64,000 nucleotides of DNA from Streptomyces formicae (GTDB lineage: Bacteria > Actinomycetota > Actinomycetes > Streptomycetales > Streptomycetaceae), in assembly GCF_002556545.1 (NCBI RefSeq), contig NZ_CP022685.1, positions 7,232,001 to 7,296,000 of the forward strand, in the 5' to 3' direction. How positions within the stretch are numbered: position 1 is the stretch's first letter; each line of letters starts with the position of its first letter. A program made the translations under genes and the position numbers. The notes below the pieces were generated by a model, which was given only the letters and a program-made list of their open reading frames with translations, ran no database searches and was not told where the DNA came from. Below are positions 4,071-59,457 of this stretch, piece by piece.

Positions 4071-4093
4071 GTTTTGTAAGCGTGTTCCAAAAC
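4071..4093 (+). promoter_or_regulatory. operator in front of tetR
   Basis: The sequence GTTTTGTAAGC / GTGTTCCAAAAC forms an imperfect inverted repeat just upstream of the tetR start. It shares the outer TTxTG...CCAAAA arms with the two palindromes before the MFS gene at 2288 and 2334. This implies autoregulation by the TetR protein. Confidence 0.65.
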
Positions 4094-4108
4094 GTTTACG
4101 GTGGAGCC

Positions 4109-4693
4109 ATGGCCAGGCCACGAGAGTTCAACGAGGACCGTGTCGTCAGTGCCGCCATGGAGACGTTCTGGCGCCACGGGTACGAGGGCACGTCGACGCG
4201 GGACCTGTGCGACAGCACGGGCCTCGGCCCCTCCAGCCTCTACAACACCTTCGGCGGCAAGCGCCAGCTGTACCTGCGCGCCCTCCAGCACTACTACGAC
4301 ACCAGCACCGCCGAGCAGGTCGCCGTCCTGCGCGCCCCGGGCCCCGCCAAGGAACGACTGCGCGCCATGATGCTGCTCGCCGTCGAGGGGGAGCCCGAGC
4401 ATGAAGTCCGCGACGAACGCGGCTGCTTCGCGATCAACGCGGCCATCGAGGTCGCCGGGACCGACCCGGAGGTCAGGGCCGCGGTGCGGCGCACCTTCGA
4501 CCGGGTCGAGAACGAGCTGTGCGAGGTGGTAGAGGCGGGGCGGCGCGCCGGCGAGATCCGCTCCACCGGTGACGCGCGGACGGTGGCCCGCCGGGTGCAG
4601 AGCACGTACTACGGACTGCGCGTCCTCAGCCGGGTGCAGGACGACCGCGACGTCCTGCTCGCCACGGTGGACGGGGCACTCGCCGACCTGTGA
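4109..4693 (+). CDS. TetR/AcrR family repressor
   Basis: A 194-residue protein beginning MARPREFNEDRVVSAAMETF, with the helix-turn-helix YEGTSTRDLCDSTGLGPSSLY, a typical TetR DNA-binding domain of the branch whose members often sit beside RidA-like or MFS genes. The C-terminal ligand domain (GCFAINAAIEVAGTDPEV region) has the form seen in TetR_C family 16-like repressors. An ATG at 4109 gives the canonical start; the upstream in-frame codons overlap the operator. Shared palindromes upstream of both this gene and the MFS gene point to a local circuit controlling efflux. Confidence 0.85.
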   Translation: MARPREFNEDRVVSAAMETFWRHGYEGTSTRDLCDSTGLGPSSLYNTFGGKRQLYLRALQHYYDTSTAEQVAVLRAPGPAKERLRAMMLLAVEGEPEHEVRDERGCFAINAAIEVAGTDPEVRAAVRRTFDRVENELCEVVEAGRRAGEIRSTGDARTVARRVQSTYYGLRVLSRVQDDRDVLLATVDGALADL

Positions 4694-4941
4694 CGCGCGC
4701 CCGCCGCCACAGTGATCGGCACGCGTGCCCCGACCGCCGTCCTCTCGCGCCTCCCCGGACGCAACGGAAAGCCGCTCGGCTCCCTCTTCCAGGGTGGTCC
4801 GATGTGGGGGGAGGAGAACTACTACGGAAATGCCCCCCATCGCGTGTCACCTGCCCGTTTATCAGGTGTTGATCGGATACGGACAGGCTCCGCGGGTCCA
4901 CGTTCAGTCATGTACCAAAGGAATTGACCGGAGGCATGCAC

Positions 4942-5022
4942 ATGAAGATCGTTCGCTCGCTCAAGAAGAGGATCACCGGAGAGAAGAGCCTCAAGGCGTA
5001 CGCCTGGTACCACTGGTACTAG
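4942..5022 (+). CDS. atropopeptide (tryptorubin-type RiPP) precursor peptide
   Basis: A 26-residue ORF. The ATG at 4942 has GGAGG seven bases upstream; the ATG six bases earlier is too close to that site. The peptide has a basic leader (MKIVRSLKKRITGEKSLKAY) followed by a C-terminal hexapeptide AWYHWY and a stop. From memory, the RiPP tryptorubin A is built on the core AWYIWY, and its family (atropopeptides) is made from a short precursor plus a single cytochrome P450 that cross-links the aromatic side chains into a rigid, non-canonical atropisomer. Here Ile4 of the core is replaced by His. Normally the P450 gene follows; instead a hairpin and a degraded integrase follow, and a P450 appears at 27970. 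Gene function is a family-based inference with strong sequence support. Confidence 0.82.
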   Translation: MKIVRSLKKRITGEKSLKAYAWYHWY

Positions 5023-5044
5023 GCCGGCGAAGCGCCACATTCTG

Positions 5045-5089
5045 AGAGCCCATCTGACCTGCGGAAACGCAGGTCAGATGGGCTCTTTT
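5045..5089 (+). terminator. strong intrinsic terminator after the precursor gene
   Basis: An 18-bp perfect stem (AGAGCCCATCTGACCTGC and its complement) with loop GGAAAC ends in TTTT. It lies 23 bp past the precursor stop and 54 bp before the integrase start. It would stop transcription from the precursor promoter from entering the island. It may belong to the incoming element rather than to the original RiPP locus. Confidence 0.8.
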
Positions 5090-5142
5090 GATGCCTCGTG
5101 TGCACACCGTATGTGCGCCGGAGTTCGATCAACGTGCATGTC

Positions 5143-6479
5143 ATGGCACGAGTGGTGGCGCGAGAGCGCAAGGACGGTGGCGTCTCGTATGACGTCCGGT
5201 GGATAGCTGGAGGGAGCCGCAGGGGTAAGAACGAGTCGGAGATCTCCGCCGATGACAAGGCTGCGGCTGAGCGCTTCAAGAACCTGGTGGACGGGCACGG
5301 CCAGCACTGGCCCCGGGTTGGAGACGCGGCCGGGGCTTCGTCGAGCACCTCAGGAGCTTGGACGAGATGTTCGAACCCTTCGCCATGAAGCAGATTCGCC
5401 TGCTGACCGGTGTCCAGGGCGACACCAAGGCCAGGTATCGGCGGATGGTCGAGCAGAGCATGTCTCCGTGGTTCAAGAGCTTCTCCGTCCGGGACGGAGA
5501 AGGCGGGATCAACCGCGAGATGGTCCAGACGTGGATCAATGACCTGCAGGCGGGAGCGGCGGCCCCGCACGATCCGGCAGGCCGCAAGCCACGCACGAAG
5601 TTCAAGCCCAAGACCGTCGCGAACACGCATGGCCTGCTCCACGCGATCCTCCAGGCCGCAGTCGATGCCGAGCCGTCACCTCGAGCCACGAACCCGTGCG
5701 CCTACACCCGGCTTCCCCGTCTGGACGGCCACGAGCTCGAAGAGGAGATGACCTTCCTCGAACGCCAGGAGTTCGGGTGGATCTTCGAGTGCATAGCGGA
5801 GGACGCCAAGGACCTGACCGAGGCCTTCGAAGAGACAGGCGGCCGCTGGGGTGAGGTCACCGCTCTCTAGCCGCGAGACCTCCGCCGCCGGAACAACCGC
5901 CCTGCTGTCAGCATTCAGCGCGCGTGCCAGTGCGACGAGAACGGCAAGGCGTACATGGGCGCCCCAAAGACGAAGAGGAGCCGGCGCACGGTCGTCGTCA
6001 CCGAGGCGTTCTGGCAGAAGCTCAAGCGCAGAGCTAGGGGTAAAGCTCAGGACGACCTGCTCTTCACCGGCCCGGAGGGCAATCGATGGGACCCAGGAAC
6101 GTTCCGTCGACTGCGCTGGATGCCCGCGATCGAGCTGGCCATCGAGAAGTTCGGCCTGGCCAAGCGGCCGCGCCTGCACGACGTCCGTCACTCCCACGCA
6201 TCCTGGCTGATCGCGGCGAAGGTGCCTTTGCCCGCCATCCAGAGGTGCTTGGGGCACGAGAGCATCACCACGACCGTGGACCGCTACGGCCACCTCCTCG
6301 ATGCCCTGGACGACGAGGTCATCACAGCCATCGAATGGGCCATGAACCCGAATGCCCCGCTCCCGGGCTTCCTCGCGCACTCCGGACTGGCGGACGCAGC
6401 GAAAGACTTGCCTACGGTGCCGCACCAGCACCAGCATCCGCCCTCGACGAGGTCTCGTGGAAGGACGCGAGCGAGATAG
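5143..6479 (+). pseudogene. tyrosine recombinase (integrase), frameshifted and with an amber stop
   Basis: Three pieces together make one phage/ICE-type integrase. The N-terminal arm-binding start is MARVVARERKDGGVSYDVRW. The core-binding domain runs from about 5340, and the catalytic domain has Arg in TGGRWGEVTAL, HDVRHSHASWL (HxxR box) and GHESITTTVDRYGH with the nucleophile Tyr. Adding one G near 5315 restores the frame between pieces one and two. A TAG at 5868 interrupts VTAL-PRDL where the family has Gln (CAG), so a single transition would repair it. The gene is probably dead, although an amber suppressor or readthrough cannot be excluded. It marks the left edge of the island. Confidence 0.85.
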
Positions 6480-12263: not shown

Positions 12264-14676
12264 TCAGCCGCGGGAGCGCAGCATGCGGTCGGCTCGGTCC
12301 AGGAGATTCGTGCGGAGGACCGGGACAACCTGTGCCGCCAGTTTTTCCGCTCGTCCGACGAAAGTCAGGTCGATACCGAACACCGGGAAAAGCCATTTGG
12401 TGTAGGTCCGCGCCGGCACAGTTCCGCTGCGGTGGATGGTTTGCACGAGATCGAGGTAGACCTCAGCGTAGGGCCTGAGCAAGTCGTCCTGACCGGCGCT
12501 CCAGAACGGCGTCGCGACTGAGTGGACCGAAGCGAGAAGCACTGCACGGTCGTTCGCCAGCGTCTGCCAGACCGCATTCTTCTCGGCCGCGTCCGGGGTC
12601 GCCGCGTGGACCTGGAGCCTGCTGACCCACGCATCGGGATCCGGGTCGCAGTCGAGCAGCGCCTGTGCCTCGGCTGCGGTCGGGCTCCCGAGCTGAGCCT
12701 TGCGAACCAGTGCTCGCCACTGGAGATCGATGTCCTCCCCGGCCTCGGCCTGGAGCCATGCCACCTCCTCCACCCCGGCCGCAGTGCGCGCGAAGCCGCG
12801 CAACGCCGCTTTGCGGTAGGCGCCGACGCCGGAGAGGCCACGGCACACCGCAGCCACTGCTCGCAGCAACTCGTCCCGCTCCGACTCCGAGCTCCACAGA
12901 TCTGCAGCCTCGACAGCCAGGTTGAGATACGGCTCGATCACCGATGCGGACGTCTCGACAGCGAGCACTACGGTCAGGCGCTGCACGGCTTCGGCGGCTG
13001 TCGCTTCGCCGTTGCTCAGCATGTCCCAGGCCGTGGTGACGGCGATACCCCACGCGGTCGCGGTGGGCAGGCGGGCGGCGTTACGGAAGAACGCGTCTCT
13101 GGTCGTGGCGTCAGGTCTCGTCGAGGCGAAGGTCAGGTCTTCATCGTTGACCAGATACAGGTCCCCTCCTGCTGGCAGGTCGAGCCGGGCCCGTTCGCCC
13201 GCCACCTCGACTTCGACGAGTGCCATGCGCTCAAGGTGGTTCCCGGAACGCTCGTAGGCGCCGACGGCAAGCACATGCGGGCGCGGCCGGCCCCCCGGAC
13301 CCTGAGAGACCAGGGCAAACCCGTCTGTGTCGTGGCCGAGAGTCAGCCGGTCGGTGCCCGCTGTTTCCAGCCATCCCGCACGACAGTGGTCCAGGTCACG
13401 CCCGCTGGCGTCGGCAACCGCATCGATCACGTCCTGCAGCGTGGTGTTGCTCCAGGCATGCGTGGCGAAGTGGTTGGTCAGCCCTGCGGAGAAGTTCGCT
13501 TCGCCGACGTACGTCATCAGCTGCTGCAGTACGGACGAGCCCTTGGGGTAGGTGATGGCGTCGAACGTCGCTGCGGCCTTGGCGACGTCGTGGACCTGCT
13601 GGCGGATCGGGTGCGACATGGGTCCCTGGTCCATGAAATAAGCTTTGAGTTTCTCGCTGGCCAGGTGTGCCGTCCAGGCATCGGTGCACGGCGTCACGCT
13701 CACGGCCCAGTTGCTCGCGAACGCCTCGTTCAGCCAAAGGTCGTCCCACCAGCGCATCGTGACGATGTTGCCGACCCACATGTGCGCGAGTTCGTGCAGC
13801 AGGTACCGCGAGAAGATGTCCCACTTCGCCCTGGTCGGAGTAGTCCTGCGCAGGAACCAGTCCATCCAGGTGACGCAGCCGAAGTTCTCCAACGCGCCAG
13901 GGAACTCGGGCGTGAAGACCTGGTCGTACTTGTGCTGCGGAAACGGTATACCGAACTTGCCGGCGAAGAACTAGAGCCCCTGCGTGGTCAGGGTGAACAG
14001 CTCGTCGGCGTCCCGATCCAGGACCGAAGCCAGCGACTGCCGGGCGAAGAGCCCGAGATCATGACCAGCTCCGCGACGACGCAACTCGTAGTACGGGCCC
14101 GCGTTGATCACCGTGTTGTACGCCGCCAGCGGCGGCGTCGGCGGGAAGGTCCAGCATCGCACCGAGCCGAGGTCTTCGATCTGCGGGTCACCGCTGTTGC
14201 TCAGCACCCGCCAGCCGGAAGGAGCGGTCACGGTGAACGCCCACGGCGCCTTGAGGTCCGGCTGATCGAAGCAGATTCAACACGTACCGGGCGTAGTCGG
14301 GACTGAAGCCGGTGTAGACATACGTCTCGCCGTCAGAGGGATTGACCGCCTTGTGCACACCCCGGCCATCGGCCGAGCACTCCGTCACCGAAACCACCCT
14401 GAGGACGTTGCGCTCGCCAAGCCCGGTCAGCGCGATCCGGCCCTCGACAGCCGGCCGCAGCACGACCCCGTTGCGCGTGGCGCTCTCCACCGCCGCAGCA
14501 CAATCGACAACAGTCTCGGCCCCGGGCCGGTGACACGTAAAGGTGATCGTCGACTCGCACCGCACCCGCGAGCCGGTCATCAGATCCGAAAGGTCGACGG
14601 CAACGGCATACCGCTCGACCGTCAGCAGGATCGCGCGCCCCTCGGCCTCAGTCTGGGGCAGACTCCTGTTGCTCAT
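12264..14676 (-). pseudogene. pepN: M1 family aminopeptidase N, frameshifted and with an amber stop
   Basis: Start ATG at 14676 behind GGAGGGG. The pieces cover a whole PepN-like metallopeptidase: N-terminal beta domain (SPDYARYV, then frameshift near 14270), AYNTVINAGPYYEL, the substrate-anchoring GALENFGCVTW, the zinc site HELAHMWVGN with WWDDLWLNEAFA 18 residues on, and a long helical C-terminal domain. An insertion near 14270 shifts the frame, and a TAG at 13971 interrupts GL-FFAGKF. The catalytic part downstream of the amber stop remains open from an internal ATG at 13892, but that lacks the exopeptidase N-terminus. Inactive extra copy of a housekeeping gene. Confidence 0.85.
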
Positions 14677-15061: not shown

Positions 15062-15279
15062 GTGCTCCCGCGCGAGCGGAGGTGAACCGTTCGTGGGAAG
15101 ACCGCCCCCCGTTGGAGTTCGGGCCCCGTCTGGGCAAGAGTTGCGGGCGCAGACATTCGCTGCTCTGGGCGCACGTGTGCGCCCAGGGCCGGACGGAGGC
15201 GGATCGAGTGGGATTGAGACTGATGGGAACGGTGTTGTTTGCCCTGGTTTTCCAAGGTGCGTCTCAGATATGGGTGCGG
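15062..15279 (+). repeat. duplicated CRISPR-flank segment, copy A
   Basis: Begins with a 28-nt CRISPR-type repeat (one base shorter than that at 27648) and continues with about 190 bp that align with 27677-27877, including GTTGGAGTTCGG, CGGACGGAGGCGGATCGA and GATGGGAACGGTGTTGTTTG. Copy B contains an 18-bp insertion near its end. The conserved sequence next to the repeat is probably a CRISPR leader. Here no spacer remains: upstream DNA is nuclease coding sequence. Confidence 0.65.
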
Positions 15280-16403: not shown

Positions 16404-17924
16404 TTACAATCCTTGGTACCAAGTGTTCGGTTCTTGGGCTACGGGAGAAATCGCAGCTTCAGGGTCCTCGATCGGGTATTCGTTCGGAAGTTTCATTCCA
16501 GGCTTTCCATTAACCAGGTTTGGTTTCAGATGTACGCGGCACCCTGATTCCCTAGCCTGTGCCACGAGATCCACTACCCACTCAAATGGAGGAGAAAAGC
16601 TCGGAACCAATCGACAATCTTCACCCGCTCCCTGAGTAGTCTCGGTCTGAGCGCCGATTACGACCCAGTCGAACATCGAGAGATCGTCAAATTTGAGTGG
16701 CTCTCTTAGAGGCTCAATCGAGAGCCATTTTACCTTAACTCCGTCAATTTCCCTGAAGGCGTCTTCAGCGATCCGTACACGCTTTTGCTCGTCGATGCTC
16801 GTGCCGACCCAAGCAGTCGGTGGAAGATCGACCTTGGTGTACCGCATCGGGAACTTAGTTAGAAGAAGGTATTCCCACATAGGATTAGCGGTCATGACCG
16901 AATGGACCTCAAGGATCCACTCCTCGGGAACCCAGCGACCGTAGAGGTCCGCCATTGAGCAAACGAACACCCGGTGCCATGTCGGATCGTTGCGGTGTTC
17001 CTCAGGAATGCGTGTGTTAGCTGGAGCTTGTAGGCGCTCGTGGTGGAATAGAGGATCGAACCCGACGGGGTTTACCTGAGGGAAGCGTTGGGTAATCCCG
17101 CGGGCATAGCAGTAGGTACATCCGTGTAGACAGCCAGTCACTGGATTCCATGACCATCGCGCCCAGGAGATTCCCTCGCCATCGACTTGGTTGTTGAACG
17201 TCGACTTTCCGGAGGGTTTGTTGTACGGCACTTCCCGGCCGTCGTGTGTCCTCAGCGTCAGCAGGACCCCGCTGGGCTTCTCACTCGGAGGCCCCTCTGG
17301 CAACTCGCGCAGCCGCTGGCGAGCTCGCTTCTCGGCCTGGTCTAGAGCCAACTCTCCCGATCGCACCTTGTCCACGAGCTCGGGTGCGTACTCAGCGACG
17401 GTCTTGGCGCGCTGAACAGAGCGAGCTGAGGTTCCGACCGTGCGGGCGGCTCTCGCACGGGAAGTCTGATCGTCAGGATGTTCGGACGCTTCTGGCTGAT
17501 CGGCCAGAAGCGTCGCTCCTGTGACCTGGGAGCTTACCTGTTCCGCGGTTCGCCTCGCTCCTTCGCGTTGACGTTCTTTGGCCTCCTCTGTGTAGGCCTT
17601 TTCGTACTCAAGAGCGAGAAATGCCTTCTGGCCGGCCGAGAGCTGGCGTCGCGCTACATTCTTCGAAACGATCAGGTCGAGGATCATGGACTCCGTGTGA
17701 TCCTCCGGCAGGGACTCGAACGCTGGCGTGATGCCAGCAGACTCGCAGGCGAGGTACCGGTTGCGGCCATCGAGGAGGACCGTTCGGTCGTGGTTGAGCA
17801 AAATAGGATCACGGAGGCCGTGGTACTTGATATCGAGTACCAAGTCTTCCATTTCCTCGCCCTGAAGTAGGGGGAATACGTCCGCGAATGAATGCACTTG
17901 GTAGGGGCCGAGCTTCTTGATCAT
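16404..17924 (-). CDS. ParB-like/DUF5131 (phage Gp37/Gp68-type) fusion protein
   Basis: 506 residues from ATG 17924. Residues about 5-110 form a ParB/sulfiredoxin domain (ILLNHDRTVLLDGRNRYLAC, then VARRQLSAGQKAFLALEYEK). A helix-turn-helix-like linker follows (ARTVGTSARSVQRA), and from about residue 230 comes a DUF5131-type domain: SWARWSWNPVTGCLHGCTYC with a CxxxCxxC motif like radical-SAM [4Fe-4S] ligands, WVGTSI and WLSIEPL. Gp37/Gp68 proteins are phage/mobile-element encoded and of unknown function; the fused ParB domain suggests DNA or nucleotide binding. The ATG overlaps the stop of the upstream gene (ATGA), so both form one operon. Lower GC than neighbours suggests transfer. Confidence 0.8.
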   Translation of the reverse strand: MIKKLGPYQVHSFADVFPLLQGEEMEDLVLDIKYHGLRDPILLNHDRTVLLDGRNRYLACESAGITPAFESLPEDHTESMILDLIVSKNVARRQLSAGQKAFLALEYEKAYTEEAKERQREGARRTAEQVSSQVTGATLLADQPEASEHPDDQTSRARAARTVGTSARSVQRAKTVAEYAPELVDKVRSGELALDQAEKRARQRLRELPEGPPSEKPSGVLLTLRTHDGREVPYNKPSGKSTFNNQVDGEGISWARWSWNPVTGCLHGCTYCYARGITQRFPQVNPVGFDPLFHHERLQAPANTRIPEEHRNDPTWHRVFVCSMADLYGRWVPEEWILEVHSVMTANPMWEYLLLTKFPMRYTKVDLPPTAWVGTSIDEQKRVRIAEDAFREIDGVKVKWLSIEPLREPLKFDDLSMFDWVVIGAQTETTQGAGEDCRLVPSFSPPFEWVVDLVAQARESGCRVHLKPNLVNGKPGMKLPNEYPIEDPEAAISPVAQEPNTWYQGL

Positions 17925-18919
17925 GCACAATCCTCGTCGCTTACCTCGTCACAGTCGGGCCAGAATGTCATCTGCTCGGGCGGTGGGGCTTCCTTGTACG
18001 CGTCGATCATCTGGAGTCTCTCATCCTTCGTCGCGGCTAGCCAATACTCTTCCTTGCCGCGAATGCCTTTCATTTCTGCCTTAGTGAGGAAGTGCCGGAA
18101 TAGTTCATTTCGGAACATGCCATCGCCTGCGCGATGCCAGGTGATAGAGACGTCGTGGCCTTGTTGCTTGAAAGCCCTGCGGACCAATACCTCTGTCCTG
18201 TTGCGCCACTTGTCGGAGGTTTCGATAAGGTACGACCACTGCGCGTCGTCGTTCGCTGCGGCGAGGCATAGATCGCGAGAGGAGGGCAAGGTACTCTGGA
18301 ATTCGGCCATGCGATCGAAGCACTCGATGCGAGTCGGCCTCATCTTCTTGTCGCGCTTAAGTCCTGTGGCGTTGCATCCCATGGTCGTTAGGCTGCGGAA
18401 GAAGCGGACGCCACTCCTATTTAGCTCGTGGGAGAAGGTTGAGCGCATAGCCCATCCGGTGATCGCATTCGGATCATTGATCGCGAAGACGGCGTCGCTT
18501 CCCCTGACCAAACTCACGGACGCATCGGCGCCATTGCCATTGATGATGTGCAGGGTTGCCCGAAAGGACTTCCAGCAAGTATCGCCAACCTGAGCGTACC
18601 CGAACTCTGGTAGTCGCTGCCGGAGGTTGGCTAGTAGCCGTGCGTATGTCACGGGATTGATCTCGTAAAGGAAGACCTCGACTGGGATCATCGACCGAGT
18701 AGCCTGATATGCGAGGATTCCGGGTGAGCAATTCCGGTTCCAGTACTCTCCGCCAGGTACCGTAGCGTCACCAGCGGTGAGATCGAACCAGACTAGGCGT
18801 CGCGGGGGTCTGAACAGGTGGGGGGCTGCCCCTACCTCTTCGCCGATCAACTGGTTGAGCATCATGTGCTTGGCGGGCGTGCGCCAGTCACTCCGGCCGA
18901 CATCTAGCCGCTTCACCAC
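17921..18919 (-). CDS. partner of the DUF5131 protein (TcmP-like/methyltransferase-fold hypothetical)
   Basis: 332 residues from a GTG at 18919, with GAGGAG about ten bases upstream. An early segment, LVWFDLTAGDATVPGGEYW, resembles motif I of Rossmann-fold enzymes, with VEVFLYEINPVTYARL where the ribose-binding acidic residue would fall. SDAVFAINDPNAITGWAM could be a DPP-like catalytic loop. DUF5131 proteins often pair with a 'three-Cys-motif partner' (TcmP) gene, and this gene's position and coupling fit that role, though the match to TcmP itself is only general. Putative two-gene cassette of unknown, possibly defence-related, function. Confidence 0.6.
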   Translation of the reverse strand: MVKRLDVGRSDWRTPAKHMMLNQLIGEEVGAAPHLFRPPRRLVWFDLTAGDATVPGGEYWNRNCSPGILAYQATRSMIPVEVFLYEINPVTYARLLANLRQRLPEFGYAQVGDTCWKSFRATLHIINGNGADASVSLVRGSDAVFAINDPNAITGWAMRSTFSHELNRSGVRFFRSLTTMGCNATGLKRDKKMRPTRIECFDRMAEFQSTLPSSRDLCLAAANDDAQWSYLIETSDKWRNRTEVLVRRAFKQQGHDVSITWHRAGDGMFRNELFRHFLTKAEMKGIRGKEEYWLAATKDERLQMIDAYKEAPPPEQMTFWPDCDEVSDEDCA

Positions 18920-21426: not shown

Positions 21427-22449
21427 ATGAAGAAGTGGGTGGTCCCCGAGAACTCGAAGAAACGCGTCCGACGCGCGAGCCGGACGATCGGGGAGGGGAC
21501 GGGTACGCCCGAGGAGATCCGAGAGGCGCGGGAGGTCCTGAGCAACTACCGTCTCGCCCATGCCTTTCCTCTGAACGCGGTGACCATGACCGTGCGGAAG
21601 CGAGCGCTCGACGTGAACCCGAACGCCGTCGTGGCCGAGCGCCGGAAGCGCCTGCCCACGATCCTCGACAAGCTGAAGCGCCATCCCACGATGAGCGTGA
21701 CCACCATGCAGGACTTGGGGGGCTGCCGGGTGGTCTTCGACACCGTCGCCGAGGTGGACAAGTTGGTCAGCGTCCTGGAGGAATTGCCACGGAGCAAGAA
21801 CCACGTCACGAAGGTTTACGACTACCTGCGTGATGAACCGGGGCCACGCGACTCCGGCTACCGGGGTGTTCACCTGGTGTACGAGTACGGAGCCTCGAAG
21901 ACGGAGTACCACGGCCTGAAGATCGAGCTGCAGGTTCGCACGCAGCTCCAGCACGCCTGGGCGACCGCCGTCGAGACCATGGACCTGTTCTCGGGCAGCG
22001 AGCTCAAGTACGGGAAGGGCGACGAGGAACTGCTCAGATTCTTCGTCTTGGTCGGCTCCCTCATGGCGTATGAGGAAGGCACCACTCCAGTACCCAGCGC
22101 CGAGGGAACGCGAGAGGAATTGGCGGCCGAGTTGGCGTGCCTGGAGGCGAGCGTCGGCGTTCTGGAGCGGCTACAGGGCTACGCGGCGATCGTGGGTGAG
22201 CATGCCCAGACGGACCGCCGGAACACCCTGACCCTCGAGCTCTTGCGGAACGAGGGACAGCTCACCGTGACGGTGCACGAGACGCTGGCCGCCGCAGAGG
22301 CCCGGATCACCGAGCTGGAGGCATTGGACGACGAAAACCTGGACGCGGTGCTCATCAACATCGCCCGGATCAGCCAGCTGCGCGACGCCTACCCGAACTA
22401 CTTCGCAGACACCGGCCGTTTCACCGCGTTCGTCGGGGCGTGCCTTTAG
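21427..22449 (+). CDS. RelA/SpoT-domain small alarmone synthetase-like protein (toxSAS/defence candidate)
   Basis: 340 residues. The synthetase-type nucleotidyltransferase core is visible: RLPTILDKLKRHPTMSVTTM, DLGGCRVVFDTVAEVDKL, DSGYRGVHLVYEY, then IELQVRTQLQHAWATAVETM, matching G-loop, GYRGxH and E-x-Q-x-RT-x-x-QHxWA signatures of (p)ppGpp synthetases. No HD hydrolase domain is present. A C-terminal helical region of about 140 residues follows. The stop TAG uses the first base of the adjacent IS end, so the C-terminus may have been clipped by the insertion. Stand-alone synthetases on mobile DNA include toxic SAS proteins and CapRel-type anti-phage fusions; activity here is inferred. No RBS is obvious. 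Confidence 0.8.
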   Translation: MKKWVVPENSKKRVRRASRTIGEGTGTPEEIREAREVLSNYRLAHAFPLNAVTMTVRKRALDVNPNAVVAERRKRLPTILDKLKRHPTMSVTTMQDLGGCRVVFDTVAEVDKLVSVLEELPRSKNHVTKVYDYLRDEPGPRDSGYRGVHLVYEYGASKTEYHGLKIELQVRTQLQHAWATAVETMDLFSGSELKYGKGDEELLRFFVLVGSLMAYEEGTTPVPSAEGTREELAAELACLEASVGVLERLQGYAAIVGEHAQTDRRNTLTLELLRNEGQLTVTVHETLAAAEARITELEALDDENLDAVLINIARISQLRDAYPNYFADTGRFTAFVGACL

Positions 22450-23889: not shown

Positions 23890-26181
23890 GTGGGCGCCAA
23901 GGGGAGACGATCGGGGCGGCCGTGGGCGTCACCGCGAGGTTCTTGTTTGGAGATCAACCAACTGGTTGAACAGATCCGGTCGTGGCTGGACAGCGCCTCA
24001 ATTTCTGTGGTGCAGCTTCATGAGCGTCTCACTCCGGACCACTTCACGGCGGGTGCGGTGCCCGAACTGCGCCGACTGCGCGATCTATTGTCCGGTGAAG
24101 TGCTGCCGTGGGACCTGGTCGAGGCGGTGGCCGATGTCTGTTTTCCTAAGGAACCAGTCGGCCGCGCCGAACAACGTCTGCAGGCAGCACGGGATTTATG
24201 GCAACGAGCCCGGGTCAGCCCGACTCCGCTCGCAAAAGGGACGCACGAGCTGGAACTCGCCCACGAACTGCTGGCAGCTAAAGACCGCACCATCGAGGTG
24301 TATCAGGAACTGCAGGTCGTTCGGCACGCCTACGAGACTAGTGAACGCAGTCGGGCCCAGGCGCTACAGATCGCCACCCTTCTCTTCGCCATGCTCGGGC
24401 AGGCGCAGGCAAAGGTGGCAGAGCTGAAACGTCGGGTCGACGCCCTACAGGTAGTGCCGCCAAAGAAACTGGAGGTGCATACAAACCTGGAGCTGCGCCT
24501 ATCGCGCGCGCAGCGACAGCAAAACGACCTGCGGCAGCAGTTGGCACGTGCACAGCAGGAGAGGGACACTGCCCAACAAGTTGCCGACCACGCCGCACGG
24601 CGTATTCAGGGCCTGGAAGCAGAACTGACTACCTTGCGGGAGTGGACAGAAGGCGATAATCCCAACCTCGTAGAGCACCTGACTGCTCAAGTTCCTCAGT
24701 CAGGATTGCAAGCGATCTCTAACGATGACGCGGATCTAGACGACGTCGATCTCGCTTTGCAGAAGGCCCGTGTCGTGCTCGATGAGGAACACGACACTGT
24801 TCAGCAGGCCGCCCAAGAAATGGGATATCGGACGCCTACGCACCCGGCCTCTCGCAGTGAACCGGCGGTGATGATTGTGCCTGCGCAGCTGCAGCACAGA
24901 CACCAATCACCCTCCTCTTATCGAGCAGCCGAAGATCCTTCCGGTTTGTCCCAAATAACCCGGGACAACCATCCGACCAGCTCTGCTGCTGCCCCCCAAG
25001 CCGACGGCCAACTGGCGGCAGCGGAGCTGGCGAGCCGCAGCACGTTGGATGGTGACCGGACCGCGTTGTACGGCCGCGAGGCGTACATCGCCGACGAGCT
25101 GCAGCGCACGATGCTGCCCGAGACGCTGCCGCGCCCGACCGGCGTGCGGCTCGCCTCGCGCTATCTGCCCGCCGCGGAGACGGCGCGGGTCGGCGGCGAC
25201 TGGTACGACGCGATCCCGCTGCCCGGCAGCCGGGTCGCCCTGGTCGTGGGCGACGTCATGGGGCACTCGATGACCTCGGCGGCGATCATGGGCCAGCTGC
25301 GGACGACCGCGCAGACCCTCGCGGGGCTCGACCTGCCGCCCCAGGAGGTCCTGCACCACCTGGACGAGCAGGCCCAGCGGCTCGGCTCGGACCGCATGGC
25401 GACCTGCCTGTACGCGGTCTACGACCCGGTCTCGCACCGCATCACCATCGCCAACGCGGGCCACCCGCCGCCCGTCCTGCTGCACCTGGGCGGCCGCGCC
25501 GAGGTGCTCCGGGTGCCGCCGGGCGCCCCGATCGGCGTGGGCGGCGTGGACTTCGAGGCGGTCGAGCTCGACGCCCCCGCGGGCGCCACGCTGCTCCTGT
25601 ACACGGACGGGCTCGTCGAGTCCCGCCTGCGCGACGTGTGGACCGGCATAGAGCAGCTGCGGGAACGGCTCGCCGCCACCGCCCAGTTGACGGGCCCCGA
25701 CCACCCGCCGCCCCTGGAGGCCCTCTGCGACGAGGTGCTCGACATGCTCGGCCCTGGCGACCGGGACGACGACATCGCGCTGCTCGCCGCCCGCCTCGAC
25801 GGGATCGCGCCCAGCGACGTGGCGTACTGGTTCCTGGAACCCGAGGACGCGACGCCGTCCCGGGCCCGTCGGCTGGCCCGCAGCGCCCTGGTGCGCTGGG
25901 GCCTGGAGGACATGACGGACTCGGTGGAGCTGCTGGTCAGCGAGGTCGTCACCAACGCCGTGCGGTACGCCTCCCTCCCTGTCACGCTGCGCCTGCTCCG
26001 CACCGACGTGCTGCGCTGCGAGGTCGGCGACGACGTGCCGCAGCTGCCCAGGCTGCGGCAGGCGCGGGCGACGGACGAGGGCGGGCGCGGCCTGTACCTG
26101 GTGAACTTCCTGTCACAGCGCTGGGGTGCGGCGCGGCTGAGCACGGGCAAGGTGGTCTGGTTTGAGCTCCAGCAAAATTAG
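23890..26181 (+). CDS. chimeric regulator: HTH/coiled-coil N-terminus fused to SpoIIE phosphatase and HATPase
   Basis: 763 residues from a GTG. Residues 1-110: actinobacterial HTH-like start (QLVEQIRSWLDSASISVVQL, LLSGEVLPWDLVEAVADVCF). About 120-310: long coiled coil (RRVDALQVVPPKKLEVHTNL, RQQNDLRQQLARAQQERDTA). About 310-385: Ser/Pro/Gln linker. From about 390: a PP2C/SpoIIE serine phosphatase (ELQRTMLPETLP, VGGDWYDAIPL and VVGDVMGH metal-binding Asp residues, LLLYTDGLVESR) and a C-terminal GHKL ATPase (ELLVSEVVTNAVRYA N-box, GRGLYLV). SpoIIE-HATPase proteins control anti-sigma networks. Composition changes from about 57% to over 70% GC at the linker, suggesting gene fusion. Start fairly well supported (GGGAGG). 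Confidence 0.75.
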   Translation: MGAKGRRSGRPWASPRGSCLEINQLVEQIRSWLDSASISVVQLHERLTPDHFTAGAVPELRRLRDLLSGEVLPWDLVEAVADVCFPKEPVGRAEQRLQAARDLWQRARVSPTPLAKGTHELELAHELLAAKDRTIEVYQELQVVRHAYETSERSRAQALQIATLLFAMLGQAQAKVAELKRRVDALQVVPPKKLEVHTNLELRLSRAQRQQNDLRQQLARAQQERDTAQQVADHAARRIQGLEAELTTLREWTEGDNPNLVEHLTAQVPQSGLQAISNDDADLDDVDLALQKARVVLDEEHDTVQQAAQEMGYRTPTHPASRSEPAVMIVPAQLQHRHQSPSSYRAAEDPSGLSQITRDNHPTSSAAAPQADGQLAAAELASRSTLDGDRTALYGREAYIADELQRTMLPETLPRPTGVRLASRYLPAAETARVGGDWYDAIPLPGSRVALVVGDVMGHSMTSAAIMGQLRTTAQTLAGLDLPPQEVLHHLDEQAQRLGSDRMATCLYAVYDPVSHRITIANAGHPPPVLLHLGGRAEVLRVPPGAPIGVGGVDFEAVELDAPAGATLLLYTDGLVESRLRDVWTGIEQLRERLAATAQLTGPDHPPPLEALCDEVLDMLGPGDRDDDIALLAARLDGIAPSDVAYWFLEPEDATPSRARRLARSALVRWGLEDMTDSVELLVSEVVTNAVRYASLPVTLRLLRTDVLRCEVGDDVPQLPRLRQARATDEGGRGLYLVNFLSQRWGAARLSTGKVVWFELQQN

Positions 26182-26551: not shown

Positions 26552-27523
26552 TTGCGAAAAGCTCGGTGTGGCAGTCTGCGCGGCTTTCAACTCCTACACC
26601 GCCCGTCCCCAGCGCATCCTCGTTCCCGCTCACACAGGCCATCGTGTCAGGGGGCCGAGGGCAGCTTGTTCCGCATCCGCGAACAGGCACACCTCCCAGC
26701 TCACACGATCGACACCCTCGCTTTTGCCCACCGCGTCCGCGGCGGCCCCTTTCCCACCGGCTGCAACCTCGACAACCTCGTCAAGGAAAACCTGGGCGAG
26801 ATCCGGCGCAAGCTCCGCTTTCCTACCTTCGCCCCCGGGCTGCGGCCCGGTGGCATGAGCGGAATGTCGCCCGAGAGGCACGACGCCGACCCGCGCGAGG
26901 ACGCATCGCTGGTCGCCCGGACTTGGGAGGCGATGGTCACCACCCGCACCCTCGCCTGGGGAGCCGGAAAGCCGTTCTGGACCCACCTCGACGGCGACAC
27001 CCGCCCCGGCTCCGCGGAACTGGTCGACGAGCACATCGCCGAACTCACCGGAGAACAGCCGCAGATCGAGGCAGCCGAATGGGCCGCCCGCATCCGGGAG
27101 GAGGGCCGAATCATGCGCCCCACCACCCCGAGCATCAACAGCCTGCTGCTGGCCAACCTGGCCGCCGCCTGCATCCCTGCCCCCGAGCCGGTTCGGATCA
27201 TCGCCGACCTACTCCAGACCGCGGGTGAGATCCCCTCCGCCCGAGTCCTGCAGGCCGAGGATCTCTATATGGCCTGCCAATACCTCGGCACCCAGCAGAA
27301 CCTCGACGTCCGGCACCGCAGCACGACCGGCAAGACACTCACCAAGCCCCTGCGAGAACCCGTCGCATGGGCCCTCTGGCAGCTCGCCCAACCGGAATGG
27401 ACGGCGGCTCAACGGCACTGGCGCGAGGAAGCGCGCACGACCGCTACCGGCCACGTCCGCCTCCGGGAGCTGAAGAAGGAACGAGAACGCATCCGGGGAC
27501 GCCTCGCCGCGCTCGTCGACTGA
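26552..27523 (+). CDS. hypothetical protein, N-terminus probably lost
   Basis: Codon third positions become strongly G/C from about 26690 on in this frame, supporting coding. Recognisable stretches: AHTIDTLAFAHRVRGGPFPT, NLDNLVKENLGEIRRKLRFP, ASLVARTWEAMVTTRTLAW, PSINSLLLANLAAACIPAPE and a charged C-terminal helix (LRELKKERERIRGRLAALVD). The first 45 codons after the TTG at 26552 look non-coding; the ATG at 26855 is an alternative start. I do not recognise the family. It lies directly before the CRISPR-repeat locus. Confidence 0.45.
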   Translation: MRKARCGSLRGFQLLHRPSPAHPRSRSHRPSCQGAEGSLFRIREQAHLPAHTIDTLAFAHRVRGGPFPTGCNLDNLVKENLGEIRRKLRFPTFAPGLRPGGMSGMSPERHDADPREDASLVARTWEAMVTTRTLAWGAGKPFWTHLDGDTRPGSAELVDEHIAELTGEQPQIEAAEWAARIREEGRIMRPTTPSINSLLLANLAAACIPAPEPVRIIADLLQTAGEIPSARVLQAEDLYMACQYLGTQQNLDVRHRSTTGKTLTKPLREPVAWALWQLAQPEWTAAQRHWREEARTTATGHVRLRELKKERERIRGRLAALVD

Positions 27524-27586
27524 GCACTACCGTGGTCGAAACGCCGAGGACACCGTGGTATTCAGCGTCGGAATACCGGGCGCCGA

Positions 27587-27676
27587 CTCACCTCCACTCG
27601 AGCGGAGGTGAACCGCCCATGCGTACTACGACAGCACCCCGATCGAGGTGCTCTCCGCGCGAGCGGAGGTGAACCG
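27587..27676. CRISPR. CRISPR relic: degenerate repeat, one 32-nt spacer, one repeat
   Basis: A degenerate 29-nt repeat (27587-27615), a 32-nt spacer (27616-27647) and a 29-nt repeat (27648-27676) whose hairpin is CTCCGCGCGAGCGGAG. Repeat and spacer lengths are those of type I-E. The degenerate copy on the left suggests the distal end there and the leader on the right, whereas comparison of the GGTGAACCG end with other I-E repeats suggests the opposite; orientation is unresolved. No cas genes nearby. Confidence 0.75.
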
Positions 27677-27877
27677 TTCGGGAACCGCCCCCGTTGGAGT
27701 TCGGCGCCCCGCCTGGGCAGGAGTCGCAGGCGCAGCCCTTCACCGCACTGCGCGCACGTGTGCACACCAGGCCCGGACGGAGGCGGATCGAATGCGATTG
27801 TGACGGATGGGAACGGTGTTGTTTGACCTGATTTTCCGATAGAAATACAGGCGAGGTGCGTCTCAGATTTGGGTGCG
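27648..27877 (+). repeat. duplicated CRISPR-flank segment, copy B
   Basis: Aligns with 15062-15279 across the repeat and about 200 bp on its right side. It contains TTGTTTGACCTGATTTTCC and an 18-bp stretch absent from copy A. Similarity stops at about 27877, 93 bp before the P450 start, giving the best estimate of the island's right limit. Confidence 0.65.
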
Positions 27878-27969
27878 CATCCCGTAGGGACGACGTAACT
27901 CGCCGTCGAGACCGCGCCCGGCCGCCCCACACGGCGCCGGGCGCGAGCCTCCCGCACCTGGAGACTCCG

Positions 27970-29025
27970 ATGCCCCCGACGCCCTCCTCCGGTACCGACC
28001 GGATGTCCAGGACCACCGTCTTCACGCCGCGACTCCACGCCCTGCTGCGCGACCACCGCGGCGAGGACGTGTTCCGGCTGGACGCCGACACCGTCGGCGT
28101 CGCCGGGCCCGAGCAGAGTGATCGGATCCTCGCCGCCCGCCCGGCCACCGAACGCGAACGCCCCACCTTCAAGCCGCTGCACGGGCGTTCGATCCCGCGC
28201 ACCGAGGCGTCCACCGTCATGCAGGCCATCGGCCGCGACGTGCGTACGGCGCTGCGCAAGCCCGTGCAAGGGGACGTCGACCTCTCCGGCGAGTGGCCGC
28301 ACGTCGGCCACGTCCATCTCCGTGATCTGATCCTGGGCGCCGACCCGTACCGGCTGCGCATCCTCATGGACCGGACCCTGGAGTTGACGCCCAAGCTGAC
28401 CTGGTCGGTGATCGCCGTCGGCGCGGCGCTGCCCGGCAGGCTCCGGCCGGGAGCGCCCGTCACCAGCATCGCGGGGCTCACCGCGAACGCCACGGGCTAC
28501 AGCGACCGCCGCTACGCGATGGGTCTGTACCGGCGGGCCGCGGCCCCGGTCTGCTTCACCGTCTCCACGCTCGTCGCCAACGCGTACTGGCTGGGGGCGC
28601 CGTTCGACGACGACACGCCGAACGAGCACATCCTCTACGAGTCCATGCGGCTGCTGCCGCCGTCCTGGAACATCCTGCGCAACGCGTCCCCCGAGTACCC
28701 GGCCATCGACGACCGCATCGGCGCGGGCGACGACGTCCTGCTGCTGCCGCTGCTCAGCCACCGCGACCCGGCGCTCTGGGAGGACCCCGACGCGTTCCGC
28801 CCCGAACGCTGGGCCGATCTCGACCCCGACGACCACCCCGGCTACCTCCCCTTCGGCCATGTCTCCGAACGCTGTTGGGGACGGCACATGGTGATGCCGC
28901 TCGCCGGTCTGCTGCTCGACGTCCTGCGCGCCGACGGCATGACGGTCGACCCGGGCCAGGCCACCGCGAAGGTGCCCCTCGCCGGCCTCCTCGGGGTCGA
29001 CAAGGTGCGGCTCGTGCGGCCGTGA
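27970..29025 (+). CDS. short divergent cytochrome P450, candidate atropopeptide cross-linking enzyme
   Basis: 351 residues from ATG 27970 (GGAGA six bases upstream), shorter than the usual ~400. The K-helix ExxR is present in LYESMRLLP, followed by NASPEYPAIDDRIGAGDDVL and LSHRDPALWEDPDAFRPERW. The heme-thiolate Cys is near residue 302 in FGHVSERCWGRHM, a variant of FGxGxHxCxG. The I-helix lacks the normal (A/G)GxxT; the corresponding region reads AAAPVCFTVSTLVANAYW. In tryptorubin-type loci one such P450 acts on the precursor; this is the only P450 here and the precursor (4942) lies on the other side of the island. Assignment to that precursor is inference. Confidence 0.8.
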   Translation: MPPTPSSGTDRMSRTTVFTPRLHALLRDHRGEDVFRLDADTVGVAGPEQSDRILAARPATERERPTFKPLHGRSIPRTEASTVMQAIGRDVRTALRKPVQGDVDLSGEWPHVGHVHLRDLILGADPYRLRILMDRTLELTPKLTWSVIAVGAALPGRLRPGAPVTSIAGLTANATGYSDRRYAMGLYRRAAAPVCFTVSTLVANAYWLGAPFDDDTPNEHILYESMRLLPPSWNILRNASPEYPAIDDRIGAGDDVLLLPLLSHRDPALWEDPDAFRPERWADLDPDDHPGYLPFGHVSERCWGRHMVMPLAGLLLDVLRADGMTVDPGQATAKVPLAGLLGVDKVRLVRP

Positions 29026-51555: not shown

Positions 51556-54500
51556 GTGTCAGACCCCCATGCGTACCGAGCAGCGAGCGCCGCGCAGCAA
51601 GGCGTCTGGCTGGCCCACCAGTTGGACCCCGGCAGCACGCTCTACCACTGCGGGGTCCGCCTCGTCGTCGAAGGCCCCGGCCTCGACGTGCCGCTGCTGC
51701 GCGAGGCCGTGCGGCGCGCGGTCACCGAGGCCGAGACGCTGCGGACGCGGTTCGTCGCCCACGAGGACGAACTGCGCGTGCGGATCGCGGACGTGCCCGA
51801 GGAGCCGCTGACCGTCGTCGACCTGCGGGCCGGACCCGAGGCGGAGCGCGAGGCCGCCGCCCGCGCGTGGACGGACGCCGACCTCGCCGCCCCCATGGAC
51901 CCGGCCCGCGGCCCGCTCGCCGCGCACACCCTGCTCCGGATTGCCGACGACCGGGCCTGGCTGCACCTGCGCTACCACCACATCACCCTCGACGGGTACG
52001 GCCAGAACCTCTACCTGCGCCGCCTCGGCGACCTCTACAGCGCCCTGGTGGCGGGCCGCGACCCGGGGCCGAGCCCCTTCGTGCCACTGGGGCGGCTCCT
52101 GGACGAGGACGCGCGCTACCGCGCCTCCGACCGCCACGCCCGCGACCGTGCCCACTGGCTGCGGGAGTTCACCGGCGCGCCCGTGCCCGCCACCCTCGCG
52201 GGCCGCTCCGCGCCGCCCGGCGCCGAGGTGCTGCGCAGCGCCGTACGGCTGCCGGGGGAGCGCGTACGGGGGCTCCTGGACGCGGTGCCGGACGCCGTGG
52301 GCCGCTGGTCGCTGCTGGTCGTCGCCGCCACCGCCGCCTATCTGCACAGGATCGGCGGCGCCCGCGAGGTGGTCATCGGGCTGCCGCTCGCCGCCCGGGT
52401 GGGCGGGGCGTCGGTCACCACCCCCTCCATGGCGGTGAACGTGCTGCCGCTGCGGATCGCCCTCGACGAGACGACGACGTTCGCCGGACTGGTCGCCCAG
52501 GCCCGGGCGAAGGTCAGCGAGGCGATCAGGCACCAGCGCTACCGGGGCGAGGAACTCCGCGCGGAACTCGGCCTTTCGGGCGCCTCCGACGACCTGCACG
52601 GCCCGTCCGTGAACACCATCGCCTACGAGGAGGAACCGTCCTTCGCGGACCTGCGCGTCACCCGCCACCAGGTCATGACGGGGCCCGTCAAGGACCTGTC
52701 GGTGGTCGCCGTCGGCACCCAGGACGGCGAGGGCGGCGTCCTCCTCGAACTGGAGGCCAACCCCGCGGTGTACGACGCGGCCGGGCTGACCCGGCACCGC
52801 GACCGCTTCACCGCGTTCCTCGACGCGCTCGCCCGCACCCCCGACGAGCCGGTCGACGACGTCGACGTGCTCGGCGACACCGAGCGGGAGCTGCTGCGCG
52901 CCTGGCGCGACACCGGCACGGACGCGCCGCCGCCCACGGCGAGCCTCGCGCGCCTCTTCGAACGCCAGGCACGCCTGCGCCCCGACGCGACGGCCCTCGT
53001 CGACGTCGACTCCGAACAGGCCCTCACGTACGGGGAGTTGAACGCCCGCGCCGACTGGCTTGCCCGGCGCCTCACCGCGAGCGGCGTGGCCCCCGGCGAC
53101 CTCGTCGCGCTCCTGATGCGGCGCTCGGCCCACCTGGTGGTGGCGATCCTCGCGACGCTCAAGGCGGGCGCGGGCTACGTGCCGCTGCACCGGGGGCACC
53201 CGCCGGAGCGGTCCCGCGGGATCCTCGCCGACACGGCGGCGCGCGCCCTGCTCACCGACGACGTGGCGGGCGCGCACCCGGTGACGGCCGGGGGCGGGCC
53301 GCCCGTGATCGAGGTGGGCGACGCCGAGACGGAAGGGCCGGGCGCGGACACGCCAGGCGCGGGCACGCCGGGCGCGGACGTCCCCGGTGATGCCGTCGCG
53401 TACGTGATGTTCACCTCCGGCTCCACAGGGCTGCCCAAGGGCGTGGCCGTCACCCACGCCAACGTGGCGGCCTTCGCCCTCGACCGGTGCTGGAGCGACG
53501 ACGTCGCCGAGTGCGTCGTCTTCCACGCCAACCACGCCTTCGACGCCTCCACCTACGAATTGTGGGTGCCCCTGCTGCGCGGCGGCCGCGTCGTCGTGGC
53601 ACCGGAGGCACCGCCCACGGCCGAGCACATCGGGCGGCTCATCGCCACCCACCGTGCCACCAACTTCCATGCCACCGCGGGGCTTTTCCGGGTGCTCGCG
53701 CAGGAGGCGCCGCACGTCTTCGCCGGGCTGCGGGAGATCTCCACCGGCGGCGACGTGGTCTCCGCCGACGCGATCCGCGCACTCCAGCGGGCCTGCCCCG
53801 ACCTGGTGGTCCGCACCACCTACGGCCCGACCGAGACCACCGCGTTCGCCACCCACCTTCCGTTCACCGCCGCCGACCCGGTGCCCGACACCGTGCCCAT
53901 CGGCCGCCCCATGGACCACACCCGAGCCCATGTCCTCGACGCCCGGCTGCGCCCCGTGCCCATCGGCGTCCCCGGCGAGCTGTACGTCGCGGGCGCGGGC
54001 GTCGCCCGCGGTTACTGGGGTCGGCCCTCGCTCACCGCGGGGCGCTTCCTGCCCGACCCCTTCGGGGCGCCGGGAGAGCGCATGTACCGCACCGGGGACA
54101 TCGCCAGATGGCGGCCCGACGGCACGCTCGACCATCTGGAGCGCGCCGACGACCAGGTCAAGGTCCGGGGCTTCCGCATCGAGCCCGGTGAGATCGAGTC
54201 GGCCCTCAGGCGCCGCCCCGAGATCGGCCAAGCGGTGGCTCTGGTACGGGAGTTCAGGGGCGACGGCGCGGACAAGCGGCTCGTCGCCTACGTCGTGCCA
54301 TCGGGCGGGCCCGGCGCCGCCCCCGACCCCGGCGTCCTGCGCACCGCACTGGCCGAACAGTTGCCCGACTACATGGTGCCCGCCGCCTTCGTCGTCATGG
54401 ACGCGCTGCCGATCACGGCGAACGGCAAGCTCGACCGCGCGGCCCTGCCCGCCCCCGACTTCGGGGCGCCGACCCCGGGCAGGTCCCCGCGCACCCCGCT

Positions 54501-57500: not shown

Positions 57501-59457
57501 CGGCTACGTGGTGCCGTCCGGCGGCGGCTGCGATCCGGCGGACGTGCGGCGCTCCGTGCGGGACCTGCTCCCCGACTACATGGTGCCCGCCGCCGTCGTG
57601 GCGCTCGACGCGCTGCCGGTGACGGTCAACGGCAAGCTCGACCGCGCGGCGCTCCCCGCGCCCGGCTTCACCGCGGCCCCCGGCGGGCGGGCTCCCCGCA
57701 CGCCGCGCGAACGCACGCTGTGCGCGCTGTTCGCCGAGGTGCTCGCGGTGGAATCCGTCACCGTCGACGACGGCTTCTTCGACCTCGGCGGCGACAGCAT
57801 CCTCTCCATCGACCTGGTCAGCAGGGCCCGCGCGGCCGGTCTCGTCCTCACCCCCGGCGATGTGTTTCGCTGCGGCACGGTCGCCGAACTCGCCGACGTG
57901 GCGCGGGACGCGGCCGACGGGGCGAGGGCCGCGGTGCCCGCCGAGACGGCGGCCACGGGTGAGCTGGAGCCCACCCCGGTCATGCACTGGCTGCGCGAAC
58001 GCGGCGGCCGGGCCGACGCCTTCCACCAGTCGGTGCTCGTGTGGACCCCCGCCGGGCTCGACGAGGCGGGCCTGATCTCGGCGCTCGACGCCCTGGGCCG
58101 CCATCATGACGCGCTGCGGCTGCGCCTGGACGTCGACGATCACGGGTACGAGGGCGGCGCGCGATGGCGGCCTCATCTCCCTGATGCCGGGTCCTTCGAC
58201 GCGGCGGGATGCGTACGCCGCGTCGACGTGACCGGTCTCGACGAAGCGGGCCTGCGTGCTCGCGTCGCGGAGGAGACGGTGGCCGCGGAGGGCCGACTGC
58301 GGCCGGGCGATGGGGTGGTGCTCCAGGCGGTCTGGTGCGACGCGGGCCCCGAAAGCTGCGGTCAACTCGTCCTCGTCGCGCATCACTTGGCCGTCGACGC
58401 GGTGTCCTGGCGGATCCTGCTCGGCGATCTCGCGGCGGCCTGGGGGGCCGTGGCGGCCGGCCGCGATCCCGTACTGGCCCCCGTGGGCACCTCGCTGCGC
58501 GCCTGGGCGGCGGCGCTCGTGGCCGAGTCGCGTTCGGCACGCCGCGAGGCCGAGCTGCCCGCCTGGACCGACATCCTGCGAACGCCCGAACCTCCGCTGG
58601 GCGGCCGCGCCCTGGACCCGGCAAGGGACCTGGGGGAGACCGCGAGATCCCTCACGGTCACCGTCCCCGACCGGGACGTGGACCCGCTCCTGAACGGGCT
58701 CACCGCCGCCTACCGCACCGACGTGCCGACGGTCCTGCTCGCCGGGCTCGCCCTCGCCGTCGGCGCGTGGCGCCACGGAGAAGGCGGGCAGGGCGGTGGG
58801 AGCGTACTCGTCGACGTGGAGGGCCACGGCCGCGAGGAGACGCTCGTGCCGGGCGCCGACGTGAGCCGGACCGTGGGCTGGTTCACGACGCTGCATCCCG
58901 TACGGCTCGACGCGGACGGGTGGGACGCGGTCCTGGACGGTGGGCCCGAGGCGGGTGCCGTACTCAAGCGGATCAAGGAACAACTGCGCGCGGTACCGGA
59001 CCACGGCGTGGGCCACGGCCTGTTGCGCCACCTCAACTCCCGGACGGCACCGGCCCTCGCCGCGCTCGCCCGGCCCCAGATCCTCTTCAACCACCTGGGG
59101 CGGCTCACGTCCGCCGCCGCGGGCGCGCCCGAACCCTGGCGGCCCGTCGCCGCGCCGCAGGGGCCGCCGCGCGGCACCCCGGGGCTTCCCCTGTCCCACG
59201 CCCTTGAGATCACCACGCTGGTCGAGGACCGCGGCGCGGGGCCGCGGCTGCGGCTCACGCTGTCCTGGCCCGGCGGCCTGCTGACCGAACCCGACGTGGC
59301 CTCCCTCGCCCGTACCTGGCTGGCCGGACTGAGCGCGCTGGCCCGGCACGCGGAGCGGCCCGACGCGGGCGGCAGGTCGCCGTCCGACCTCGCGCTCGTC
59401 TCCCTCAGCCAGGAACAGATCGAGCGCCTCGAAAACACCTGGAGGACTTCGCGGTGA
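51556..59457 (+). CDS. NRPS, modules 1-2: C-A-T-C-A-T-E
   Basis: 2633 residues from GTG 51556. C1: HHITLDGYG near 141 (active HHxxxDG), N-terminus [12 protein letters not shown] recalls starter C domains. A1: [11 protein letters not shown] ~619, FDASTYELW ~662, YGPTETT ~755, NGKLD ~956. T1: LGGHSLTAT ~1008. C2: HHIAGDAWS ~1198. A2: [11 protein letters not shown] ~1685, FDVSVWEFF ~1730. T2: LGGDSILS ~2076. [11 protein letters not shown] ~2276. My eye-derived A-domain codes are D-A-Y-H-S-G-T-A-F for A1 (no match I know) and D-V-W-H-F-S-L-V-D for A2, a serine code. With the E domain, D-Ser is predicted. An initial C domain with no upstream module fits acylated first residues. Its stop overlaps the next NRPS start (GTGA). 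Confidence 0.93.

Follow-up and report, generated by a model that had tools for sequence, protein, structure and literature searches.

The core of tryptorubin A is AWYIWY. The plasmid locus of Streptomyces clavuligerus (L165) is taken here to be the one that makes the amyxirubins, or clavorubins. Amyxirubin and clavorubin are alternative names in the main text of PMC11450843, where atropopeptide precursors are recognized by a KSLK motif, or a close variant of it, together with a Trp at core position 2. According to the same text, KSLK occupies residues 17–20 of the putative precursors, and no core residue other than W2 is conserved among atropopeptides. With the CoreFinder procedure described there, precursors were sought within 3 kb of a cytochrome P450 and were located near 328 of 440 predicted P450s.

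The window (the whole stretch of 64,000 nucleotides of Streptomyces formicae DNA analyzed here) contains a locus of this kind in which 22,947 nt separate the precursor from the start of the P450. We consider it highly probable that this is a tryptorubin-type precursor with its cognate P450, that the locus was split by an insert, and that cross-linking would now take place in trans. The family and the recurring core are known, and the gene arrangement is what is unexpected. The features are as follows.

4082–4693, + strand: TetR-family regulator (Pfam TetR_N and TetR_C_13), syntenic in relatives
4825–5034, + strand: upstream region and precursor, the last conserved stretch before the left junction (blastn with L062–L065 and L035)
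4930–4934, + strand: ribosome-binding site GGAGG, 7 nt 5' of the ATG
4942–5022, + strand: atropopeptide (tryptorubin-family) precursor (NF038372 match; alignment with nine relatives)
about 5035–27871, no strand assigned: insert of ~22.8 kb that splits the precursor from the P450, a mosaic with broken genes (gap in blastn comparison with five unsplit relatives)
5045–5086, + strand: terminator-like hairpin with a perfect 19-bp stem, a GAAA loop and a short T-run (inverted repeat; homologue of a tRNA-Ala(TGC) terminator)
5140–6479, + strand: broken tyrosine-recombinase integrase with no frame open throughout (PF00589 on the 5955–6476 piece; stops in three frames)
27872–27969, + strand: original precursor-P450 spacer with a hairpin (about 27914–27944), which stayed with the P450 (homology to L022 and L064 resumes at 27872)
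27970–29025, + strand: atropopeptide-modifying cytochrome P450 of 351 residues, with the heme motif FGHVSERCWG (Cys302) and ExxR at 224–227

The precursor open reading frame has 26 codons, with the ATG at 4942 and a TAG at 5020–5022, and its translation, MKIVRSLKKRITGEKSLKAYAWYHWY, ends in A-W-Y-H-W-Y. These coordinates and this sequence agree exactly with a sequence-only reading of the window, which had also pointed to an ideal ribosome-binding site; the GGAGG is likewise found 5' of the precursor start codon in the nine relatives compared. NF038372, the curated NCBIfam model of the tryptorubin precursor, matches the peptide over residues 1–26 of 26 with 57 bits against a cut-off of 33 (E = 1.7e-15), which identifies the frame as an atropopeptide precursor. 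A Pfam search of the peptide gave no match. The leader carries KSLK at residues 15–18, and the aromatic-rich core AWYHWY has the Trp at position 2 that the published family rule describes. The pattern KSLKxYAWYxWY-stop occurs once in the 9.6-Mb genome, and reversed-pattern controls gave no match in any genome scanned, so the frame lies far beyond chance. A looser pattern, KSLKxxxWxxW, likewise matches once, and no second precursor was found in the window or in the genome by KSLK-type patterns. Judged by its sequence, the frame is a tryptorubin-type RiPP precursor of a known family, as had been proposed: its leader resembles those of known atropopeptide precursors, by both NF038372 and the published motif, and relatives with the same flanking genes also have the frame. 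The further expectation that gene finders would skip so short a frame has to be qualified, because the NCBI model would probably annotate the precursor gene.

A scan of the whole collection for KSLKxYAWYxWY-stop returned 28 named loci, seven of which have the AWYHWY core (L011, L015, L027, L029, L030, L033 and L035). The same pattern is present in 14 of the 392 genomes of the genus sample, a set that overlaps with the named loci, and six of these 14, S. formicae included, have a His at core position 4. Several Streptomyces share the AWYHWY core, which is therefore not peculiar to this genome. Given a known family and a recurring core, the locus is a further member of that family. The sequence-only reading had not met with a description of a His-4 product, and the string AWYHWY indeed does not occur in the literature text searched (main texts), but the core itself is shared. 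Within the same scope, AWYHWY was not found in the main text of PMC11450843, nor AWYH in that of PMC12352619. In the latter text, ScaA variants were assayed with the P450 ScaB, one of them bearing an artificially introduced His at the corresponding position; nearly all ScaA variants, except an Arg one, gave cyclic tetrapeptides.

Streptomyces sp. G44 (L015) has exactly the same precursor peptide, and the two genes differ in four sense codons, all synonymously, and in the stop codon. Compared with the AWYHWY loci of this strain, Streptomyces sp. WAC 01529 (L011) and Streptomyces silaceus (L035), the core is identical, the precursors are 96–100% and the P450s 87–89% identical, and the flanking genes are common as far as the loci reach. 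These three loci are unsplit, with the P450 starting 72–136 nt 3' of the precursor, whereas the locus in the window is split. With the tryptorubin family in general (NF038372 and the main texts of PMC11450843 and PMC12352619) the window shares the full-length precursor match, KSLK, W2, the hexapeptide core and one dedicated P450 of the same family. It differs in the His at core residue 4 and in the gap between the genes, which elsewhere spans tens to a few hundred nucleotides. The S. clavuligerus plasmid locus has a KSLK precursor ending in KSLKGYAWYIWW just 5' of a P450 that is 71% identical to that of the window; it differs in its core, in the adjacency of its genes and in its location on a plasmid. 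Two further groups of loci were seen. In L091, L120 and L121, precursors with KNLK or KSMK lie beside P450s, and these motifs are outside the CoreFinder list as given in the main text of PMC11450843. In L101 and L103–L107, precursors with the core AWYGWI adjoin P450s 58–63% identical to that of the window.

Pfam gives 45 P450 matches in the S. formicae genome, in some cases two for the pieces of a single gene. The P450 at 27970–29025 shows 86–87% DNA identity by blastn to the precursor-adjacent P450s of L011 (cut short by the locus end in this comparison), L015 and L022, and 82% identity across a longer stretch to that of L035. The identity of 86–87% to P450s that lie beside the same precursor indicates that this is the cognate enzyme, and the partner that the sequence-only reading had suggested is thereby confirmed. 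The heme motif FGH...RCWG is present in 22 of the 28 named loci; in five of the remaining six the locus stops within the P450, and L026 holds none. In NCBIfam the P450 comes closest to ApyO, another RiPP P450, but stays below threshold (61 bits, cut-off 525), and a sequence search of the PDB gave general P450 similarity only (best E 8.5e-10).

None of 150 conserved columns deviates in the P450, which is also the case for 11 of the other 47 sequences. Its dN/dS to the five closest relatives is 0.195–0.273, compared with 0.193–0.284 among those relatives, and its private codon changes comprise 6 nonsynonymous and 17 synonymous ones (N/S 0.35; 0.18–0.62 in the five others); both measures pool selection before and after the insertion. 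The reading frames of the precursor and the P450 both look intact. An intact P450 with an ordinary dN/dS would fit continued function, and equally a recent insertion.

A query of the genus sample with the P450 gave at least 50 matches, spread over 48 of 392 genomes (best five candidates per genome). Forty-nine P450 loci outside the S. formicae genome were examined. Three of these (L108–L110) have P450s that are 38–40% identical and no precursor by regular expression; they were taken as another family and left out. In all 46 orthologous loci, which come from 45 genomes, the P450 lies 35–240 nt 3' of the precursor. The precursor was found by regular expression in 45 of them, and in L091 it is the KNLK variant, 156 nt 5' of the P450. 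A search of 120 relatives, 12 of them matching, added two loci from another genus (L120 and L121), with precursors 82–128 nt 5' of the P450. Among the 28 named loci, the P450 is 40–136 nt 3' of the precursor in 27, the exception being L026. The window is the only case among the loci examined in which a precursor and its cognate P450 are both present but far apart. That the two genes are neighbors in relatives and separated here by an insertion had been overlooked in the sequence-only reading. In the literature text searched, no report of a split RiPP cluster or of an unlinked RiPP precursor was found.

Five unsplit relatives (L062–L065 and L035) define the junctions. Their blastn matches to the window begin at 4821–4914, end at 5029–5034 and resume at 27872–27935. 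The flanking genes are syntenic on both sides in these five, where the locus is continuous, and this synteny indicates one ancestral locus that was opened by the insert. The proximity of 3 kb used for mining is a feature of gene arrangement and not a property of the precursor or the enzyme, and its absence from the window is explained by the insertion, which parts a syntenic locus into two halves.

The GC content of the insert is 0.564–0.687 in all but one of its 1-kb intervals, compared with 0.675–0.738 at the flanks. The fold across 5023–5100, which includes the hairpin at its left end, has an energy of -50.5 kcal/mol and a z of -7.7. The integrase that follows is 70–73% identical at the DNA level to integrases beside tRNA-Ala in four genomes (G006, G085, G062 and G225). 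A search of 295 genomes with the hairpin and the integrase listed matches to one or the other in 82, that of S. formicae included. Fifteen stretches from the matches listed were examined: on reading, the 3' end of tRNA-Ala(TGC) adjoins the hairpin in all 15, ARAGORN finds an intact tRNA-Ala(TGC) in 14 (the exception is L172), and in four an integrase with 70–73% DNA identity lies 3' of the hairpin. There is no tRNA in the 64-kb window, where GCGCCACATTC before the hairpin is the sole reminder of the tRNA end GGCTCCACA. The tRNA-Ala of the S. formicae genome is intact, has another terminator and lies at about 4,817,800, 2.42 Mb from the window. No second integrase copy in this genome was reported among the best 40 of 151 candidates.

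By its sequence, the insert begins at its left end with the hairpin and the broken integrase of an integrative element of the tRNA-Ala(TGC) type. The elements of the four genomes share with it the order of hairpin and then integrase, and a further stretch, at about 19.2–19.5 kb of the window, is common to L174 and L176. Those four elements adjoin tRNA-Ala, whereas the window copy sits in an atropopeptide spacer and its integrase is broken. The simplest reading is that such an element used the spacer as a secondary integration site and later decayed, with other insertions added; alternatively, a rearrangement may have carried the element into the spacer. No attachment-site repeat of at least 18 nt joins both ends of the insert, and no matching right attachment site was found. 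The literature searched on secondary attachment sites contained nothing relevant. Plasmid records matched the first 7.5 kb of the insert in part only (none of 58 matching records reaches 80% coverage), and Rfam gave no match at gathering scores over 4600–29100. A 12-nt direct match, CGTGTGCACACC, occurs near both ends of the insert (5097–5108 and 27757–27768); it is nearly palindromic and may be due to chance.

Other contents of the insert include an IS5 transposase, a SpoIIE-type phosphatase and two CRISPR remnants. The remnants (15062–15278 and 27594–27877) resemble type I-E arrays, the type being assigned by reading, and end with a duplicated downstream stretch that is 82% identical; long arrays with a matching repeat occur in further genomes of the genus. 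The duplicated stretch (15062–15278 and 27648–27877) was at first considered as the end of a mobile unit, an idea that was dropped. When 295 genomes were searched with this stretch, the CRISPR repeat part alone was covered outside the S. formicae genome among the matches listed. A RelA/SpoT-domain protein (21427–22449) matches the PADLOC candidate defense family PDC-S33 (E 4.8e-108). A DUF5131 protein with a longer N-terminal part (16404–17930) matches the PADLOC candidates PDC-M41B and PDC-M30B, and the neighboring frame at 17921–18919 has no family match. An aminopeptidase N frame (12264–13892, - strand) covers positions 261–825 of an 832-position model and is probably a gene fragment. Beyond the insert, the window has very long + strand frames of 2633 and 1075 residues at 51556–62681, of megasynthase size.

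That the short frame arose by chance, or that it encodes a different class of P450-RiPP, for example a biarylitide, might be argued from its length of just 26 codons and from the Tyr and His in the core, both of which are used in biarylitides. The full-length match to NF038372 and the conservation of the leader, the ribosome-binding site and the flanks in relatives argue against this, as does the precursor length of five residues described for biarylitides in PMC13417212; on the sequence comparisons this explanation is already refuted, and its probability is negligible. The separation of the genes could instead be an artefact of assembly, the precursor and the P450 being truly adjacent in the chromosome. 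The split is known from one assembly, with no second split genome among the 46 genus loci and the two further ones, and its right junction adjoins the stretch duplicated at about 15.1 kb. We regard this as very improbable, because the genome is a single contig of 9.61 Mb rated 100% complete, the left junction, with a hairpin and an integrase, makes sense as the end of an element, and a short duplication of about 220 nt whose copies have diverged should be resolved by a modern assembly.

With a genuine split in the reading that we prefer, the ancestral two-gene unit would have been opened by an insertion in its short spacer. The leader with its KSLK would recruit the P450 to the precursor, and the enzyme would join the aromatic side chains of AWYHWY and one backbone nitrogen, as in tryptorubin. 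A housekeeping peptidase would then free a rigid hexa- or pentapeptide. Because of the insertion the P450 now has to act in trans from a transcript of its own, and cross-linking would proceed in this way unless expression of the P450 has been lost. In four relatives the spacer folds into a GC-rich hairpin (z -1.4 to -4.7; in L063 hardly better than shuffles), and the spacer copy that stayed with the P450 in the window has a z of -3.6 (27885–27972). The terminator-like hairpin brought by the element, which is stronger than that of the spacer, now lies 22 nt 3' of the precursor stop. A search with the sigma-70 consensus found no promoter-like site at 27500–28000 before the P450 or at 4700–5200 before the precursor. 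A terminator scan of the same two regions was also negative, and the hairpin at 5045 is below its T-run threshold. A pathway that still works, with the precursor and the P450 as separate transcription units 23 kb apart, the former with its own terminator and the latter with another promoter, and with separate regulation, is tentatively given a little less than an even chance. Much the same holds for the possibility, which we rate just short of even, that a genuine cluster has been silenced: the P450 would have lost a shared promoter through the insertion, no product would be made and both genes would await decay, although the precursor itself may still be made. The hairpin now 3' of the precursor and the lack of a consensus promoter before the P450 are in keeping with silencing, and so is the orphan KSLKAYAWYIWY frame of Streptomyces zagrosensis (L026, 1393–1473). 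This frame has ATA at the expected start, and the best match to the window P450 in that assembly is 31% identical over 87 residues, so there is no close relative of the enzyme. It suggests that precursors left without their enzyme may decay, but an in-frame ATG six codons further upstream makes this decay uncertain, and L026 is a single, uncertain contrasting case. Silencing is also opposed by the intact state of both genes, with no deviating column and an ordinary N/S ratio in the P450, by the broken integrase, on account of which the insert may not be fresh, and by same-strand frames upstream (23890–26181 and 26552–27523) that could read through into the P450.

A His-4 atropopeptide core gives specific masses to look for: [M+H]+ is calculated as 925.399 for linear AWYHWY and as 923.384, 921.368 and 919.352 after loss of 2, 4 or 6 H, and the corresponding dehydrogenated forms of WYHWY come to 852.346, 850.331 and 848.315. 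With the 3-kb limit of CoreFinder and precursors located near three-quarters of the P450s, as its main text reports, split clusters of such a kind would be missed, and some of the P450s listed there that have no nearby precursor may be split likewise. The split is a natural test of whether a precursor and its P450 need to be transcribed together. If the product is made, mining based on gene neighborhoods undercounts the family; if it is not, an early step of cluster loss is preserved in this strain.
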